Shown piece after piece: positions 5,338 to 55,907 of a stretch of DNA of 64,000 nt (the first letter of the stretch is position 1; each line of letters opens with the position of its first letter). The DNA lies in NCBI RefSeq assembly GCF_001411495.1, contig NZ_CP012981.1:744001-808000 (forward strand), in the 5' to 3' direction. Source of the stretch: Burkholderia cepacia ATCC 25416. Its GTDB lineage: Bacteria; Pseudomonadota; Gammaproteobacteria; Burkholderiales; Burkholderiaceae. The position numbers were made by a program, and so were the translations under genes. A model generated the notes under the pieces. It did no database searches, was not told the DNA's origin, and saw only the letters and a program-made list of their open reading frames with translations.

Positions 5338-6111
5338 TCACTTCTTGTAGTCGTAGTCCACCGTCAGCGGCGCGTGGTCGCTGAACTTGATGTCCTTGAA
5401 GATCGACGTGCTTTTCGCGGTGCCGGCGACGCCCGGCGTTGCGATCTGGTAATCGATCCGCCACCCGACGTTCTTCGCATACGCCTGGCCGCGGTTGCTC
5501 CACCACGTGTACTGCTCGGCGCGCGGGTCGAGCGTGCGGAACACGTCGACGTAGCCGACATCGTCGAACAGCTTCGTGAGCCACTCGCGCTCTTCCGGCA
5601 GGCAGCCCGAGTTCTTCTGGTTGCTCTTCCAGTTCTTGATGTCGATTTCCTTGTGGACGATGTTCACGTCGCCGCACAGGATCACCTCGCGCTTCTTCTT
5701 GAGCTGGGCAAGGTGCGGCATGAACTCGTCCATGAAGCGGTACTTCGCCTGCTGGCGCTCTTCGCCGCTCGAGCCGGACGGCACGTACACCGACACGACC
5801 GACAGCTTGCCGTAGCGCGCCTCGACATAACGACCCTCGGCATCGAATTCGCTGCTGCCGAAGCCGATGATCACGTCGTCGGGCTCGCGGCGGCTGTACA
5901 CGCCCGCGCCGCTGTAGCCCTTCTTCTCGGCGTGGTGAAAATAGCTCTTGAAGCCGTGCGGCTCGACGAATTCGGCCGGCAGGTCGTCGGCCGAGACCTT
6001 GATTTCCTGCACGCACACGCAATCGGCGTTCTGTTCGCCGAGCCACTCGAAGAAGCCCTTCTTCGCGGCGGAGCGGATGCCGTTCAGGTTGGCGGTAATC
6101 ACTCGCATCAT
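5338..6111 (-). CDS. xth: Exodeoxyribonuclease III
   Basis: A 257-residue EEP-fold nuclease, full length for the family. The N-terminus reads MRVITANLNGIRSA, then CVCVQEIKV with the metal-binding Glu, GDVNIVHKEID with the catalytic Asp-x-Asn, and the final SDHAPLTVDYDY with the Asp-His pair. This is the AP endonuclease/3' exonuclease used in base-excision repair in the cytoplasm. The first two codons are both ATG; either may start. It lies 40 bases downstream of the PPK2 gene on the same strand and could be co-transcribed, though their functions are unrelated. Confidence 0.93.
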   Translation of the reverse strand: MMRVITANLNGIRSAAKKGFFEWLGEQNADCVCVQEIKVSADDLPAEFVEPHGFKSYFHHAEKKGYSGAGVYSRREPDDVIIGFGSSEFDAEGRYVEARYGKLSVVSVYVPSGSSGEERQQAKYRFMDEFMPHLAQLKKKREVILCGDVNIVHKEIDIKNWKSNQKNSGCLPEEREWLTKLFDDVGYVDVFRTLDPRAEQYTWWSNRGQAYAKNVGWRIDYQIATPGVAGTAKSTSIFKDIKFSDHAPLTVDYDYKK

Positions 6112-6151
6112 GTCGGATTCCGTTCAGTTCGATGTTTTACAGGGTGGCAGC

Positions 6152-6991
6152 TTAACGGATCTTCACGCCTTCGAGCTCCGGCTTCGGCGGCGGGAATTCC
6201 AGCTTCATGTCGGTCATCGTGCGCAGCAGCAGCTCGGCGATCATCACGTTGCGGTGCGTCTTCGAGTTGGCCGGGATCACGTACCACGGCGCATGCTCGG
6301 CGGACGTCGCGGCGAGCGCGTCGCGGTACGCGGACTGGTACGCGTCCCAGTGCTTGCGCGCGTCGAGATCGGAGATGTCGAACTTCCAGTGCTTGGTCGG
6401 ATCGTCGATGCGCGCCTGCAGCCGCTCGCGCTGCTCGTCCTTCGAGATGTGCAGGAAACACTTGATGATCGTCGTGCCGTTCTCGACCAGCATCGTCTCG
6501 AAATCGCGGATCTGCCGGTAGCGGCGCTCGCATTCCTTCGCGTCGATCAGGTCGAGCACGCGCGGCACGAGCACGTCTTCATAGTGGCTGCGGTTGAAGA
6601 TCGCGAGCTCGCCCGCGGCCGCCACCTGCGCATGCACGCGCCACAGGAAGTCGTGCGCGGCCTCGATCGGCGTCGGCGCCTTGAACGACACGACGCGCAG
6701 GCCGAGCGGATCGACCTCGCGGAACACCGCGCGCACGGTGCCGTCCTTGCCGCTGGTGTCCATCCCCTGCAGCACGAGCAGCACGCGCTTCTTCTGCTGC
6801 GTGTGCAGGCGCTCCTGCTGCACGTCGAGTTCGGTCGACACGACCGACAGCCGTTCGCGGTCGTCATCCTTCGAGCCGGACGAAAACGGCTTTGCGGCCG
6901 GGTCGAACGCATCGAGCTTGAATGCGGCGGCTTCCTTCTCGCGCGTGAAATAAGGCACGCGGAAATCGTCGAGCGACGGTTGTTTCGCCAT
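6152..6991 (-). CDS. ppk2: Polyphosphate kinase 2 family protein
   Basis: A 279-residue P-loop kinase of the PPK2 family, which moves phosphate between polyphosphate and nucleotides. The Walker A loop is LQGMDTSGKDGTVRAVF, followed by the base-binding region VSFKAPT and the NRSHYEDVLVPRV lid segment; the C-terminus has the YVIPANSKTHRNV element. The start is ATG 6991 (MAKQPSLDDF), preceded by a very good ribosome site GGAGGA. The frame extends about 30 codons upstream into unlikely Arg/Pro-rich sequence. Single-domain PPK2 enzymes differ in nucleotide preference (GDP, ADP or AMP), which cannot be settled by eye. Confidence 0.9.
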   Translation of the reverse strand: MAKQPSLDDFRVPYFTREKEAAAFKLDAFDPAAKPFSSGSKDDDRERLSVVSTELDVQQERLHTQQKKRVLLVLQGMDTSGKDGTVRAVFREVDPLGLRVVSFKAPTPIEAAHDFLWRVHAQVAAAGELAIFNRSHYEDVLVPRVLDLIDAKECERRYRQIRDFETMLVENGTTIIKCFLHISKDEQRERLQARIDDPTKHWKFDISDLDARKHWDAYQSAYRDALAATSAEHAPWYVIPANSKTHRNVMIAELLLRTMTDMKLEFPPPKPELEGVKIR

Positions 6992-38938: not shown

Positions 38939-39014
38939 GGGGCGTTAGCTCAGTTGGTAGAGCAGCGGACTCTTAATCCGTAGGTCGAGTGTTCGAGTCA
39001 CTCACGCCCCACCA
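38939..39014 (+). tRNA. tRNA-Lys (CUU), island attachment site
   Basis: A 76-nt cloverleaf with encoded CCA. Acceptor GGGGCGT pairs with ACGCCCC; the anticodon loop CTCTTAA gives anticodon CTT. Its last 49 bases are repeated exactly at 55859-55907, marking it as the integration site of the adjacent island, which leaves the tRNA intact. Confidence 0.95.
38966..39014 (+). repeat. attL: 3' end of tRNA-Lys, 49-bp direct repeat
   Basis: Identical over 49 bases to 55859-55907, starting CGGACTCTTAATCC and ending CCCACCA. Starts within the anticodon arm and runs through the CCA end, the usual crossover zone for tRNA-directed tyrosine integrases. Confidence 0.93.
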
Positions 39015-48618: not shown

Positions 48619-48777
48619 TTAAAAGCTGTTTCCCATGCAGCCAAAATCGGTGGAAATCCACGGATTGTGATGCGTATAGATGTCGGTGCCGTAGGGGCTG
48701 CCGCCGACATCGACGCCGCCGTAACAGTCACCGGTCATCGGCAGGCCGGTCGCGGGGTTAATCGGGGTATGTGACAT
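48619..48777 (-). CDS. Small protein, 52 residues
   Basis: A short gene with a strong ribosome site (AGGAG, 8 bases before ATG 48777) and stop TAA at 48619. It encodes a Gly/Pro-rich, neutral peptide beginning MSHTPINPATGLPMTGDCYG and ending GCMGNSF, with no membrane segment. I recognise no family. It sits between the DUF6573-like gene and mod, on the same strand as both. Confidence 0.55.
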   Translation of the reverse strand: MSHTPINPATGLPMTGDCYGGVDVGGSPYGTDIYTHHNPWISTDFGCMGNSF

Positions 48778-48836: not shown

Positions 48837-49250
48837 TCAGTCGTCGCTTGGGAACATGACAGTCACGACCGGCTCGGCGTTATCTCCCGGTCCAATGGTC
48901 ATCACGAGGGCTATCGGTGTGCGACGCACACCATTCCCACCGCGCGGCACGCGATGATGCTGGAAAGGCATACGGTTGCCCGTGTGATGACGTGCCAAGG
49001 TGGCGGCGGCCCAGAGCAGGTCGTTCAAGCGCCCGCGTTCGTCCTGTTGGATTTGTCGGGCGCTGTCCTCGGCTGACCACGCCACCACGTCCGCCCAAAC
49101 CGCCGCTGTGAGTGCCACGGGAACCTTGAAGCCCGCGTCGTTTGCCTCTGCCGTGACATCAATCAGCACGCCGTCCGCGATTGCCTGTTCGCGCGTGTAC
49201 ACCGAAATGACTTCACCGAAGAGGTCTTGCAGACCGTCTCGTTTTTCCAT
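48837..49250 (-). CDS. DUF6573-like protein
   Basis: A 137-residue cytoplasmic protein. The pattern of YTREQAIADGVLIDVTAEANDAGFKVPVALTAAVW (given in parts: REQAIADGVLIDVT and AGFKVPVALTAAVWADVV) resembles the DUF6573 family of plasmids and islands, of unknown function; the family match is from memory. A cat-to-end ATG at 49250 with AAAGGA-type spacing (GGAGAAAGCACT) upstream supports the start. Confidence 0.6.
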   Translation of the reverse strand: MEKRDGLQDLFGEVISVYTREQAIADGVLIDVTAEANDAGFKVPVALTAAVWADVVAWSAEDSARQIQQDERGRLNDLLWAAATLARHHTGNRMPFQHHRVPRGGNGVRRTPIALVMTIGPGDNAEPVVTVMFPSDD

Positions 49251-49379
49251 AGTGCTTTCTCCAAAGCTGACCGGATTCCAAGATGTGAGCCCGCTTTACC
49301 GATTCCCGGTCTTCGGCGTGCGGGGTGGCGTATTGCTTGTGCCGCCGTTTTTCCTGAGTGTTTCGCCCTGGTGAACGAG

Positions 49380-50108
49380 AACGCGGGGCGGCCAGATGGG
49401 CAAGGTCGCGCACGCAAGCCGCAGCCCACCAGGGACCGGGTGAGTACGCGCGCTAAGCGCCTGGCCTTGCCCATCTGGTTGGCTCGCGTAAGGTCACCGT
49501 TTATGGGCGGAACGTTTGGGAATTACGGCGGCAGCGCCACCATCACGACGAAGCCGATGTCGCGGACATGGGCCGCGACCTATGCACGACGCATGTCGTG
49601 CGTGACTCGCAAGCCAGCGGCGCGCAGTCGGAGCGCGAGAGCGCGCTGGCGTAGGGGAGCCGCGACGGCCCGAAGGGAACGGCGTGGGGCAAGGGCGTCC
49701 AGCCCGCTGCCCAGGTCGCTGCACCAGCCCCCAGGCTGGTCGGCGGACTGCGGGGGGAGCCGGTCATCGCTGGAGGCCCTAGCCTCCAGAGGGTGCCCCA
49801 GCACCCGGCGGAAGAACCGGGGGACGGCAAACGTCCCGCGCCCCGAGCTACGCGCGGGTAAGGTAGTCAAGTCGGCGCGAAGCAAAGACCGCAGGCCCCA
49901 GGCCGGGAGCCAGCGGCGCGTTCAGCGATGCGGGTTGAGTACCTTACCCGCGCGAAGCGTGGGGCGCCGCTTTTGGAGACATGAGCTACGTCCAGTAGCG
50001 AAAATGCCCGGCAAAACGTCCAGTTTTGCGCAGAGGGCATGGTGGCTCGCCGCGTAAGCGGCTACGCCTTCCGTGTTCGTCCTCCGCCGTCCGGGAGGGC
50101 GAACACGG
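49380..50108 (+). ncRNA. Hairpin-dense noncoding block A (candidate structured RNA or origin)
   Basis: No plausible gene, yet at least ten perfect inverted repeats in 730 bases. Examples: 49391-49404 with 49465-49478 (14 bp); 49584-49601 (7 bp, 4-nt loop); 49723-49740 (7 bp, CCCA); 49770-49789 (8 bp, CCTA); 49791-49806 (6 bp, CCCA); 49821-49837 (6 bp, GCAAA); 49852-49865 with 49940-49953 (14 bp) inside 49838-49844 with 49961-49967 (7 bp); 50004-50040 (6 plus 7 bp); 50049-50062 (5 bp, GTAA); 50072-50107 (8 plus 5 bp). The GTAA tetraloop favours a plus-strand RNA; an oriV or oriT is the alternative. No known RNA family was recognised. Confidence 0.5.
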
Positions 50109-50109
50109 G

Positions 50110-50961
50110 ATGCTGCGACTTTCGCGCTATACGAAATATCGACACGTTTTTTGGAGATACTTCGTGAAATCGCGCGACGGACGCATCATCGCCAGAGAGC
50201 AGGAGCAACGACTTTTGCACTCACTATCTCGCTTTGGTTTCCTGAGGACCAGAGATTGCGCCGCTTTGCGCGCGGCCTGGTCCAGCGGCGCGACCGGCGA
50301 GCCTAGGCTAGAAGGGCCCGTCGCCACCGCGTCTGATGTGCGGATGGCGCAACGCACGGTGCGGCGGCTGTCCGATGCCCGCCAGGTACTGCGCGGGCAG
50401 GGACCGGACGGCAGCGTGATTTACGCGCTGTCAGAAGCAGGCGCGCGCCGATTGCAACACGCAGGGATTGCGGCAACGACGGGAAAGGATTTGGTGCGGG
50501 CGTTTAGCTCGGCACATTTCCGGCACCGCACGATTGCCAACGAGATTGCCATTCGCGGCCTCCTCGACGGCTATCGCGTCTCGACCGAGCGTGAGATTGC
50601 GCAGGATAAGTGGCTTGGCGGCGTCGAGGGCATCGCTGGCAAGAAACCTGACGTTCTGCTGCGCGGCGATGATGGCAAGGTATGGCTCGTGGAAGTCGAG
50701 AGAAGCCGGAAGAACGCGAAGGAATATGCCAAGTTGCTGAAATGGCTCGATGCTGTAGCCGCCGACGCGGCGGATACCTCGGGCTCGAAGCTGCTGGGCA
50801 AGGGTCTGAAATGGGGAAAAGTCATCTTCATCTGCACGCGTGCGTTCCGTGCGAAGCTCACGCGCGACCTGATTGCGAAGGGCTGGAAAAAGAGTGCGCT
50901 CGATGCGCTCGTCGCGTTCTCCACGGAGCTATACAAATTCGAGGACATCGTTTTTGCCTGA
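50110..50961 (+). CDS. Replication-relaxation-like winged-helix protein
   Basis: A 283-residue protein. The N-terminal half is a winged helix (LHSLSRFGFLRTRDCAALRA, then ALSEAGARRLQHAG) and the C-terminal half a nuclease-like or Replic_Relax-type fold with FRHRTIANEIAIRG, DVLLRGDDGKVWLVEVERSR and a VIFICTRAF strand. The DVLLR...VEVERS pattern resembles a PD-(D/E)XK core. A GTG at 50164 with GGAG 7 bases upstream is a strong alternative start. Family assignment is tentative. The gene stands between two hairpin-dense blocks, which suggests a role at an origin. Confidence 0.6.
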   Translation: MLRLSRYTKYRHVFWRYFVKSRDGRIIAREQEQRLLHSLSRFGFLRTRDCAALRAAWSSGATGEPRLEGPVATASDVRMAQRTVRRLSDARQVLRGQGPDGSVIYALSEAGARRLQHAGIAATTGKDLVRAFSSAHFRHRTIANEIAIRGLLDGYRVSTEREIAQDKWLGGVEGIAGKKPDVLLRGDDGKVWLVEVERSRKNAKEYAKLLKWLDAVAADAADTSGSKLLGKGLKWGKVIFICTRAFRAKLTRDLIAKGWKKSALDALVAFSTELYKFEDIVFA

Positions 50962-51646: not shown

Positions 51647-51692
51647 AGGTACGTACATACACATCTATATATAGATGTGTATGTACGTACCT
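51647..51692. repeat. 46-bp perfect palindrome
   Basis: Both 23-base arms match exactly; the left arm starts AGGTACGTACATACACATC and the centre is TATATA. More copies of GTACGT/ACGTAC follow to 51765, including GTACGTGC and GCACGTAC as an 8-bp inverted pair. It lies just after the RepA-like gene end. A binding site for a dimeric Rep or repressor, or a transcription barrier, are possible. Confidence 0.7.
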
Positions 51693-51751: not shown

Positions 51752-52840
51752 TTACGTCGTAGTCTCGGTGACTGAAAGGACATCATCAACGTCTCGAAGG
51801 TACCCCGCTGCCACCAGGTCCTTAATGTCTCGATATACGGATGATTCTACGCCGCCACCCATGACGACATGCGCAACGACATCGGCTTTCTGCACCCCGA
51901 CCTTCTTCTCACGCAGGAACGCCATGGCCCTGCTCTTGATTGTGCCGGGTTTGAAGCTGCTGCCGCGTTTCGAGCCACTGTGGCGCTCATGTGCCTCACC
52001 AGGAACAACAACGCAGCTTGTCGCTACTGCTCCCCACTTCGTCGTCCCGGCCTCGACCACCTCCAGCGTGAAGCCGATAAGCTCCCCTTTTGAGCCGAGG
52101 TCGCGATTCTTCGTCACTTTGGCGCATCGCCCCGCAGCCTGCTCAGTCACCTCGATTTCTGTATCGACAGCCGCACGCATGCCAGTCCATCCGCGCGCAC
52201 CAGCAGCAGCATTTCTGCCGACGTGGTGAATGAGCATGAAATGCGCTTTACTGCACGCGCTGCGGATTCGGTCGATGCGTGCGATGACTCGCCCCATATC
52301 TTGGCCCATATTCTCGTTTGCGCCTGCGCTCAGGCGTGCGAGCGTATCACCAACAATCAGGCGTACCGGCTGTCCGTGCTCAGCCTCCTGCGCACGGACT
52401 TCTTCGATAATGGTCTCCATGTCCACATTGTCTGCAAACAGGTTTATCGCTTTCTGTGCGATGAAGAAGTTAGGCACGCGAACGCCGTGATGCTTCTGAT
52501 ATGCCTGAAGACGACAGCGCACCGATTCCGGAGACTCGGCAGCCAGATAAAGCACCAGTCCCTGTTCGACCCGTCGCCCCATCCAGTCGCACCCCCTTGC
52601 GATGGCGGCAGCAAGGTCAATGGTAAAGAACGTCTTGCCGCTGTGTGAGTCGCCATACAGCATGCTGCTTCCGCCGGTCGTGAGTAAGCCCTGCACCAGT
52701 TCATCTGGCGCGGCATAAGTGGTGGGCAAGTCAGCCGCAGATACGACGTTAAGTGAGCGCCCTGTGGTTGTCGTCACTGGCGAAAGCGCCGGTCTGGCTG
52801 CGTAAATAGCTTGGTCTTTCACGCTGGTTTTCGTGCTCAT
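51752..52840 (-). CDS. RepA-like AAA ATPase (replicative helicase type)
   Basis: A 362-residue RecA-fold ATPase of the plasmid RepA (AAA_25) type. Walker A is YGDSHSGKTFFTIDLAAAIA near residue 63, Walker B the RLIVGDTLARLSAGANEN segment, and the conserved HHVGRN motif follows in FMLIHHVGRNAAAGARGWTG. The last 70 residues form a winged-helix-like tail (KVGVQKADVVAHVV...). RSF1010-type RepA is a hexameric helicase that opens the origin. The start overlaps the upstream regulator stop by 4 bases. Confidence 0.85.
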   Translation of the reverse strand: MSTKTSVKDQAIYAARPALSPVTTTTGRSLNVVSAADLPTTYAAPDELVQGLLTTGGSSMLYGDSHSGKTFFTIDLAAAIARGCDWMGRRVEQGLVLYLAAESPESVRCRLQAYQKHHGVRVPNFFIAQKAINLFADNVDMETIIEEVRAQEAEHGQPVRLIVGDTLARLSAGANENMGQDMGRVIARIDRIRSACSKAHFMLIHHVGRNAAAGARGWTGMRAAVDTEIEVTEQAAGRCAKVTKNRDLGSKGELIGFTLEVVEAGTTKWGAVATSCVVVPGEAHERHSGSKRGSSFKPGTIKSRAMAFLREKKVGVQKADVVAHVVMGGGVESSVYRDIKDLVAAGYLRDVDDVLSVTETTT

Positions 52841-54330: not shown

Positions 54331-55677
54331 TTATGGCGATTGTTCCAGCTTGAAGTCGATACCCGCTTGTTCGAGCATCCACGCCTCAATCTGGTCATGC
54401 CACTCGCGTAGCAAGTCTATCGGGCGGCGACGGTAATGCTTCTCCACCAGCGCGCTCGGCTTGTGGCCCATGATTTGCGCGCTAATACCGCTCGGCACCT
54501 CCACCCACTCGCACAACGTGCCGAACGAACGGCGCAAGCCGTGAAGGCTCACATGAGGCAATCCGGCCGCAGCCACTGCGTCCTGATGCGCACTCGAAGG
54601 CTCAGCCAGCTTGCCATCGGCGGCGGTCGGGCTCGGGAATACCCACTCCGAAGGCTTCCACTCTTTTCCCTTGGACTTCATGCGGTCAAGCTTGCGCACG
54701 TTCGGCGGCGTCTCGTTGAGTCGCTTCAGTTCAAGTAGCAGAGAGGCAAGATACGGTGTCAGGGGGATGACGCGGCCCGATTCTTCCACCTTGTCAGACA
54801 ATGACAGACTGCGCCATTGAAAATCCACGTCATCCCATTTAAGCGCGGCCATTTCCTCTCGACGCGCGCCAGTCAGCAGTAGGGCTTGCAGATATGCGCT
54901 GATAATAGGGTTGCCAAGCCGGCGAATGGCGGCGAACCACGCGGGCAACTGCTCGCGCTGGAGGCAGTCACCCTCTTTCGCGGCCACTCTGGGTACGGCA
55001 TCTCTCACCCGGCGGGCCTTGTACGCCTCATCGTGAACCACACCACGGTAATCCGCTGTATCGGCGGTCCACCGGATGAACGCGCGTAGTAGGCGATACG
55101 ATAGCGCGGCCATCGTCGGACGCTCGGCGGTCTGCGATTGCAGCCACTGGGCGACGCGCTCTCCCGTCAGCTCGGACAGCTTCAACTCCATCAGGTGCGA
55201 TAGCGGCCCCGGCATCGTCACGCCCTTTCCGCGTTTCACCGGAGCCCCGCCAGCATCTGACAGCTTCGCATGGTCGAGATAGTGGCGCTCGCCCCAGTGC
55301 GGCTTACGGTCGAGCAAATAAACGTGCCACGCCTCGCTCACGGTCACATCTCGTCGGCGTGCCTCTGCTTTTTTCGACTCCCGGGCGACGCGCTGCTCGG
55401 CGGCTTCTTCCCGCGGGTCTTTGCCAGCATCAATAAGCCGTTGCAAGCGGCGCGCTTCGTCACGGGCATCGTCAATCTTCCAATCCCTCGGCGCACCGAT
55501 TGTGACGCGCACCGTATCGCCCGCCAGCTTGCCTTGGAAAATGTAAGACAGTGCACCTGCCGCCGTTGCACGCAGCCCTAGGCCGGAAGCGCCGCTATCC
55601 CAAATGAACGATTGAGATTTGCCCGCCGGGCAGCTATGCCCATTAACCCGCCCCGCCGTGAAGTTGACCTTTGCCAT
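54331..55677 (-). CDS. Tyrosine integrase of island 1 (P4-type)
   Basis: A 448-residue integrase with the DUF4102-like N-terminal arm-binding domain (GLGLRATAAGALSYIFQGKL). Catalytic residues: Arg in LLTGARREEMAALKWDD, His-x-x-Arg in SLHGLRRSFGTL, His in IMGHKPSALVEKHY and Tyr in the KHYRRRP segment. ATG 55677 (MAKVNFTAGRVNG) is the family-like start. It lies 180 bases from the right att site, as expected for the enzyme that inserted island 1 in tRNA-Lys. Confidence 0.93.
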   Translation of the reverse strand: MAKVNFTAGRVNGHSCPAGKSQSFIWDSGASGLGLRATAAGALSYIFQGKLAGDTVRVTIGAPRDWKIDDARDEARRLQRLIDAGKDPREEAAEQRVARESKKAEARRRDVTVSEAWHVYLLDRKPHWGERHYLDHAKLSDAGGAPVKRGKGVTMPGPLSHLMELKLSELTGERVAQWLQSQTAERPTMAALSYRLLRAFIRWTADTADYRGVVHDEAYKARRVRDAVPRVAAKEGDCLQREQLPAWFAAIRRLGNPIISAYLQALLLTGARREEMAALKWDDVDFQWRSLSLSDKVEESGRVIPLTPYLASLLLELKRLNETPPNVRKLDRMKSKGKEWKPSEWVFPSPTAADGKLAEPSSAHQDAVAAAGLPHVSLHGLRRSFGTLCEWVEVPSGISAQIMGHKPSALVEKHYRRRPIDLLREWHDQIEAWMLEQAGIDFKLEQSP

Positions 55678-55858
55678 ATTTTCTGTTGTTAGAACCGGAT
55701 TGCACACTATCATGTAACCCTTATGTAACCGCATTCTAGGCAAACCAATCACCGTGGGTCAACAGAATAATCCGTGCAACCTAAGCCAAACCTCCCAGTG
55801 GCGCGCCATTTCCCGGGTTACATGCCCTTAGGTCAACACTGATAAATACCAACTTGCA

Positions 55859-55907
55859 CGGACTCTTAATCCGTAGGTCGAGTGTTCGAGTCACTCACGC
55901 CCCACCA
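55859..55907 (+). repeat. attR: 49-bp copy of the tRNA-Lys 3' end
   Basis: Identical to 38966-39014. Only the 3' part of the tRNA is present (from the anticodon arm on), so this is not a functional tRNA. It separates island 1 from the second integrase. Confidence 0.93.

Follow-up and report, generated by a model that had tools for sequence, protein, structure and literature searches.

We suggest that positions 49338-50106 (+ strand) of the window, meaning the whole 64,000-nucleotide stretch of Burkholderia cepacia DNA that was analysed, probably contain the gene of a ~770-nt ornate noncoding RNA from an undescribed family, carried on a ~17-kb integrative element with a MOBC-type relaxase. At the level of sequence comparison, the data establish a fold, its conservation, the strand that folds, its non-coding nature and its strict pairing with the relaxase; we infer that the RNA is transcribed separately and works jointly with the relaxase. 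A + strand that folds is most simply read as a large RNA, and we are fairly confident that the folded molecule is RNA. The main rival is a structured single-stranded transfer origin.

The first-pass annotation of this DNA had suggested either an unrecognised structured RNA or else a novel single-strand origin directly ahead of a winged-helix gene. The analyses support that reading, and a strand asymmetry tilts it toward RNA. They add where the element starts at its 5' end, that the next gene encodes a MOBC-type relaxase, and how strictly RNA and relaxase are paired. The RNA family and its tie to the relaxase are new, whereas large ornate RNAs of mobile elements are a known kind. We found no account of a large RNA beside a MOBC relaxase in a literature search whose coverage left subscription papers and preprints largely outside.

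Hairpin content and folding energy

At least ten perfect inverted repeats, at a density above chance, had been reported for 49380-50108. Ten non-overlapping perfect hairpins are present when stems of at least 5 and loops of 3-7 are counted, against 5.2 +/- 1.9 (maximum 11) in 300 shuffles, so at this stem length the excess is modest and inside the shuffle range. The claim of a density above chance holds from stem 6 up, where the excess is clear: there are 8 hairpins with stems of at least 6 (shuffles 1.7 +/- 1.2, maximum 6, n=300) and 5 with stems of at least 7 (0.6 +/- 0.8, maximum 4, n=300). Across the 64 kb, 8 hairpins at stem 6 or more were reached in none of 174 tiled 729-base windows, the highest other count being 7. 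The loops singled out earlier are all present, namely a GTAA loop (50049-50062), two CCCA loops (49723-49740 and 49791-49806), GGGC-GTCCA-GCCC with its 4-bp stem (49693-49705) and GCAAAAC-GTCCA-GTTTTGC (50011-50029), to which can be added a third GTCCA loop (49985-49999) and a GTTCA loop (49919-49925).

The + strand of 49380-50160 folds at -439 kcal/mol (z -7.7, 20 shuffles) and the - strand at -401 kcal/mol (z -5.2, 20 shuffles). In 200-base windows the folding excess is limited to 49800-50199 (z -7.1 and -5.9), and 49400-49799 looks ordinary at that scale (z -0.9 and -1.2) because the helices there are long-range. Correctly oriented close loci range from z -2.3 (L028) to -18 (L036), scores that are rough because each used 12 shuffles; the identical sequence in L028 and L042 gave -2.3 and -4.5. 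Folding z was left out for L017, L021, L047, L048, L049, L050, L051, L053 and L056, where the orientation was wrong or uncertain; L017, like L018, lies on the opposite strand.

Predicted structure of the element

RNAalifold applied to 9 close relatives predicts 33 helices of at least three pairs on the + strand, with 2076 of 2268 cells paired. A 29-bp helix between 49338-49368 and 49505-49536 closes the 5' domain (49338-49536); in this helix 234 of 260 cells are paired and 12 pairs show at least two Watson-Crick types. Because of this pairing the structure begins about 40 bases upstream of the start first assigned at 49380; the other assigned limit, 50108, agrees with an end near 50106. Further helices of the domain join 49381-49390 to 49480-49489 and 49395-49405 to 49465-49476.

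The core (49624-50106) is alignable over 21 close loci. It includes the first of four hairpins that share a C-GUYCA-G loop (49693-49705), with the same loop class in relatives, and a CCCA-loop hairpin at 49714-49748 (119 of 135 cells paired; at least two Watson-Crick types at 12 of 15 pairs). A conserved GGGGGAG segment (49753-49759) is predicted to pair with 50065-50072 and so close the core (60 of 63 cells paired), a pairing that rests on conservation and not on covariation, since no pair changes Watson-Crick type. Strong compensatory change marks the hairpin at 49770-49789 (69 of 72 cells). The core's longest helix joins 49839-49869 to 49936-49966 in 6 plus 24 pairs (54 of 54 and 208 of 216 cells; 97.2% of 492 cells in alignment A5, described below), and its pairs 49859/49946 and 49863/49942 are among the best covarying in a tree-based test.

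The second C-GUYCA-G hairpin (49910-49934; loop GTTCA, 49919-49925) has 65 of 72 cells paired, and the third (49982-50002) has 60 of 63 in this set and 90.5% as helix 2 of alignment A4 (described below). The fourth (50011-50029), helix 4 of A4, keeps 92.9% of cells paired and shows both-side change at 5 of 6 pairs. Relatives' loops that match 50049-50062 are GNNA, not strictly GNRA. The 3' terminal hairpin (50073-50106; 97 of 108 cells paired) has no T-run after it, and no terminator-like site was recognised at the 3' end of the block, nor a sigma-70-like promoter in 49100-50300.

Compensatory change in relatives

Covariation was assessed on 21 sequences aligned as three stretches (A3, A4 and A5). 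Both members change at 64 of 80 pairs over the three together, and 85-97% of cells stay paired: 84.9% of 503 cells in A3 (both-side change at 24 of 24 pairs), 90.9% of 672 in A4 (23 of 32) and 97.2% of 492 in A5 (17 of 24). The covariation score was matched by none of 500 shuffles in each stretch. The tested structures came from RNAalifold run on these very alignments, a choice that favours them; when partners were slid by 1-3 columns as a control, pairing fell to 24-53%, and the both-side changes (351 cells in total) do not depend on the choice of structure alone. A stricter all-pairs test compared 601 columns of the 21 sequences with 100 nulls that keep the tree; 13 column pairs reached E<=1, and 12 of them lie inside the predicted structure. 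At E<=0.05 this same test, low in power because it had only 21 sequences, gave only 3 pairs, 2 inside the structure and 1 outside.

The first-pass annotation would have given up its reading had homologues kept the sequence with no compensatory change; the opposite was found, homologues being rich in such changes. On this comparative evidence, the hairpin density stems from a conserved single-strand fold. A conserved multi-branched structure with compensatory changes is one mark of the large ornate bacterial noncoding RNAs as a kind, and such a structure is what the element has.

Folded strand and non-coding nature

Counted on the + strand under a strand-symmetric helix rule, G-U outnumbers A-C 45 to 18, and under a slightly looser rule 59 to 23 (3.9% versus 1.5% of cells). 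Given this excess, the + strand is the folded strand. In 20 related genomes, RNase P RNA counted in the same way gave 46 and 12 (4.3% versus 1.1%), and the G-U:A-C ratio of the block, 2.6, is below the 3.8 of RNase P. With a wobble rate so close to the RNase P one, an RNA is favoured over folded single-stranded DNA, short of proof because the relatives' counts are non-independent and single-stranded DNA, too, might tolerate G-T better than A-C. The same asymmetry, together with the nested long-range helices, makes it very improbable that the block is an operator or iteron array of double-stranded palindromes with no folded strand, even though inverted repeats are common in origins.

A protein gene was considered and rejected. 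The window has a 276-aa open frame (49227-50057), the point in favour of such a gene, but stops interrupt it in the relatives compared. In the comparison with L027, 8 of 10 gaps would shift the reading frame, their lengths not being divisible by three, and the three codon positions take 51/50/43 substitutions, in contrast to 38/29/99 in the relaxase gene. Searches with the frame by tblastn did find translations in relatives with partial similarity, which follows from the similarity of the DNA. The first-pass annotation saw no plausible gene here, and the conserved reading frame across the block that would have refuted its reading was not found. With the covariation added, the probability is negligible that the block is a gene for a protein or a set of GC-rich hairpins formed by chance.

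In Rfam 15, the whole window yields two tRNAs and nothing else at the gathering score, and GOLLD, ROOL, OLE, HEARO and group I and II introns are among the families with no match at that level. For 49200-50300 at E<=5 there were four chance matches, three of them to microRNA models, the best with E 0.17 and 24 of 168 bits. The RNA therefore remains outside the families of Rfam, as the word "unrecognised" in the earlier reading implied.

The host element and its cargo

A tRNA-Lys gene lies at 38939-39014, and its 3' part (38966-39014, +) is repeated at 55859-55907 (+; length inferred from 20 shared 30-mers) beside an integrase gene, which sets the bounds of an integrated element of ~17 kb. Besides the block and the relaxase, the element carries genes for a type III restriction-modification pair, DUF6573, an NPATGLPM protein, an AAA_25 helicase and an integrase. 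It is a putative integrative mobilizable element: integrase and helicase, recognised among eight proteins put through Pfam, are present together with the relaxase and the tRNA-Lys repeat. The AAA_25 (RepA-like helicase) gene is at 51752-52840 (-) and the tyrosine integrase gene at 54331-55752 (-), both assigned by Pfam. Downstream of the helicase gene is a perfect 46-bp palindrome (23-bp arms, 51647-51692), almost identical in L027 (8143-8190), which is perhaps an origin or terminator.

The DUF6573 gene (48837-49250, -; PF20213, E 3e-27) is divergent from the RNA and has tblastn matches in 13 of 34 loci searched. Next to it, a 52-aa protein with the motif NPATGLPM...DVGGxPYGT (48622-48777, -) has tblastn matches in 19 of the 34 loci, including some that lack DUF6573; it appears to be a small, conserved component of the module, and we know of no name for it. 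Between the DUF6573 gene and the RNA, the stretch 49264-49300 reads GCTGACCGGRTTCC..GATG..GAGCCC and is kept in most close relatives and on the Hydrogenophaga plasmid L091. A defence system was considered as the nature of the element and rejected: PADLOC matched the type III restriction-modification pair alone, and nothing in the relaxase, DUF6573, helicase, integrase and two hypothetical proteins.

Among the related loci scanned, several have tyrosine integrases, one a serine recombinase and several AAA_25 helicases, and the restriction-modification genes are type I, type III or other. Since integrases, helicases and restriction-modification genes differ between loci, the cargo varies around the RNA-relaxase pair.

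Linkage of the RNA and the relaxase

Relaxase searches found matches in 16 of 398 genomes of the family (11 strong), 10 of 399 of the order (3 strong, own genome included) and 4 of 369 of the class, in addition to 14 loci in further genome contigs and 1 in viral contigs (IMG/VR). The DNA upstream of relatives' relaxases is 65-86% identical to the block in the nearest eight places. Non-pathogenic carriers include Leptothrix discophora CCM 2812, Massilia agri, Acidovorax sp. SRB_14 and Trinickia terrae. R1, a covariance model built from the element's 3' portion, had matches in 11 genomes among 378 of the family, precisely those with a close (strong) relaxase, and in 3 of 369 order genomes, again those with a close relaxase; no R1 match without a close relaxase was found among these 378 and 369 genomes. 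Every one of the 24 distinct loci with a close relaxase matches R1, 23 of them just upstream on the relaxase strand, where the RNA ends about 40-60 nt ahead of the relaxase start codon. As 21 of the 24 loci were used in building R1, only L018, L020, L038 (nearly L034) and G168/L066 count as independent matches. RNA and relaxase distances correlate (Mantel r 0.79, 21 loci, 0 of 2000 permutations), which is expected for linked loci and is no evidence of function.

The remaining close locus, L018, has the whole RNA, four hairpins included, inverted on the opposite strand. This complete inverted copy (475-1300, -) has a 5' domain with very long perfect helices and a perfect 3'-end hairpin. The relaxase match contains a TAG in L018, as also in L020, so L018 may be a decaying locus.

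Plasmid records contributed four Variovorax entries with a distant piece of the relaxase and one Hydrogenophaga entry with the 5' domain alone. The Variovorax relaxase relative L090 has no R1 match and no C-GUYCA-G hairpin on the relaxase strand. In L091, the 45-kb Hydrogenophaga plasmid, the first ~108 nt of the element are matched at 73.5%; the 5' domain (5940-6400) is beside a ParB-like gene, the upstream conserved stretch is shared, the core hairpins are absent and no relaxase is annotated within the 12 kb inspected. The 5' domain may be a separate module, which counts against one indivisible RNA. A phage home was rejected, with no match of relaxase or block in 50,697 phage records; a single IMG/VR contig did match.

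The four C-GUYCA-G hairpins of the window (at 49695, 49919, 49989 and 50017) recur beyond the alignment. In the 24 close loci, 46 such hairpins are on the relaxase strand and 2 on the opposite one. With stems of at least 4, they are found upstream of five of seven distant relaxase relatives (L045, L046, L047, L052 and L056) and not upstream of L054 and L021; the distant relatives together have 11 copies on the relaxase strand and 0 opposite, against 0.07 expected from shuffles. Nine weak relaxase matches (L022-L025, L048-L051 and L053) have 6 over their whole loci, which look to be on the relaxase strand. R1 itself reaches L046 at E 1e-4 and L056, L054, L049, L052 and L047 at E about 0.005-0.07. 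Given these hairpins and matches, the RNA family is probably wider than the alignment.

This linkage bears on whether the RNA is a hitch-hiker on the element, an RNA-only assembly like GOLLD or ROOL with no direct dealings with the relaxase. The size, the ornateness and the home on a mobile element are similar, and the repeated loops could be contacts between copies. However, the near-exclusive pairing with one protein family is unlike free cargo, and restriction-modification cargo and integrases vary while the RNA and relaxase stay together. We regard such an assembly as rather unlikely.

The relaxase and the region ahead of it

The gene immediately 3' of the block, the winged-helix gene of the earlier reading, is at 50164-50961 (+) and is assigned to the PF13814 family of MOBC-type relaxases, with a putative winged helix and a putative PD-(D/E)XK-like domain. 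PF13814 matches (E<=0.1) were obtained for 11 of 20 aligned relatives, the best at 6.2e-7, and the window protein itself gave none; a protein search lists 658 relaxase homologues, and the full-length ones are annotated as replication-relaxation family proteins. D163, E177, E179 and Y188 are kept in 20 of 20 aligned relatives and K183 in 19 of 20, in agreement with the D, E-x-E, K, Y catalytic pattern that TraX is said to have. A search of solved-structure sequences with the relaxase profile gave no match up to E 1. From its sequence relationships, the product is a MOBC-type relaxase with a putative restriction-endonuclease-like fold, and nicking activity is predicted. PF13814 has been mapped to the MobC relaxase superfamily (PMC5357655), and MOBC relaxases are described as kin to restriction endonucleases (PMC6499999).

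Between the block and the gene is a CTATAC motif (50127-50132, +), either promoter -10-like or nic-like, which in the 24 close loci precedes the start of the relaxase gene by 33-49 nt. It reads CTACAC in L039, is found at -59 to -73 in L021, L045 and L047, and is absent in L046, L052, L054 and L056. An inverted repeat, 50131-50140 with 50156-50165 (+), surrounds the ribosome-binding site, and its arms change in step in most relatives. We propose that CTATAC and the repeat (50127-50165) form an operator, an attenuator or a nic region, all of them candidates.

The repeat, which overlaps the ribosome-binding site, and the location of the block, same-stranded in 23 of 24 loci and ending some 40-60 nt short of the start codon, would suit an attenuator or long 5' leader in the relaxase mRNA. 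The size of the block speaks against this, as does CTATAC, which resembles the gene's own -10 box and remains with the gene in L018. Since the RNA is inverted in L018, it is not a mere leader, and we consider this explanation improbable.

The alternative of a single-stranded DNA structure, a transfer origin or leading region whose + strand folds on unwinding so that the relaxase reads the hairpins directly, draws on several features of this region. The block adjoins the relaxase gene, the usual location of an oriT, and CTATAC with its inverted repeat lies between the two. The MOBC prototype TraX/pAD1 reportedly has direct repeats beside a large inverted repeat, which the four same-direction CGTYCAG copies resemble. 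The GNNA loops of relatives are tolerated by DNA too, and the lack of a recognised promoter fits as well. Other observations oppose it: to our knowledge no oriT matches the size of the block and its number of conserved helices, and the G-U frequency resembles that of RNase P RNA. The relaxase gene as a rule enters the recipient last, which predicts transfer of the - strand, yet it is the + strand that folds. In L018, moreover, the block is inverted relative to the relaxase while CTATAC remains with the gene. Although this is the main rival, we consider it unlikely.

Proposed function

Returning to the noncoding RNA, we predict, on account of the linkage, that it acts through the relaxase and is probably its partner or regulator. 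In this scenario the RNA would fold into two domains, and a protein from the mobilization module, the relaxase being the likeliest, would dock onto the four near-identical C-GUYCA-G hairpins. The docked RNA could either assemble the relaxosome or restrain it until a helper conjugation system is present. It is possible, although we hold this only tentatively, that a conjugative relaxase here has, for the first time, an RNA partner, a dedicated molecule of ~770 nt. It would bind a MOBC relaxase via its repeated C-GUYCA-G hairpins to assemble, target or restrain the relaxosome of mobilizable elements across Betaproteobacteria, and distant versions would stand beside other PF13814 relaxases.

The element hints at an unsuspected role of RNA in gene transfer, and MOBC relaxases are the least understood of the relaxases. 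Bacterial RNAs this large and intricate are few and mostly without a known function or partner, so that a candidate partner and a testable phenotype, mobilization, could open the question of what large RNAs do. Should the RNA reading fail, single-stranded transfer DNA with a conserved fold of 770 bases would be equally unusual or more so.

Comparison with known systems

The closest known RNAs are GOLLD and ROOL. According to PMC12286853 these form cages, and like the block they measure several hundred nt, are ornate in structure, occur on mobile elements and have no known function. The block differs in having no Rfam match, in its hosts (Betaproteobacteria and kin), in lacking a tRNA island, in its tie to a relaxase and in its repeated C-GUYCA-G hairpins. 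OLE is likewise a large ornate RNA and works in a protein complex. However, OLE is chromosomal and belongs to Gram-positive extremophiles, and the block has no Rfam match to it.

Omega RNAs and HEARO are structured RNAs beside a nuclease gene of a mobile element, and the block is similarly structured beside a nuclease-like gene of such an element. Unlike them, it has no Rfam match and no guide-like variable end was noticed, and by Pfam its neighbour is neither IscB nor TnpB. F-type plasmids have single-strand promoters and leading-region structures near the transfer origin, but the block is far larger, and its folded strand is not expected to transfer first. With the MOBC modules, TraX of pAD1 and MobC of CloDF13, the block shares a neighbour of the PF13814 family; it departs from them in the large RNA beside the relaxase, which we did not find described for those modules.
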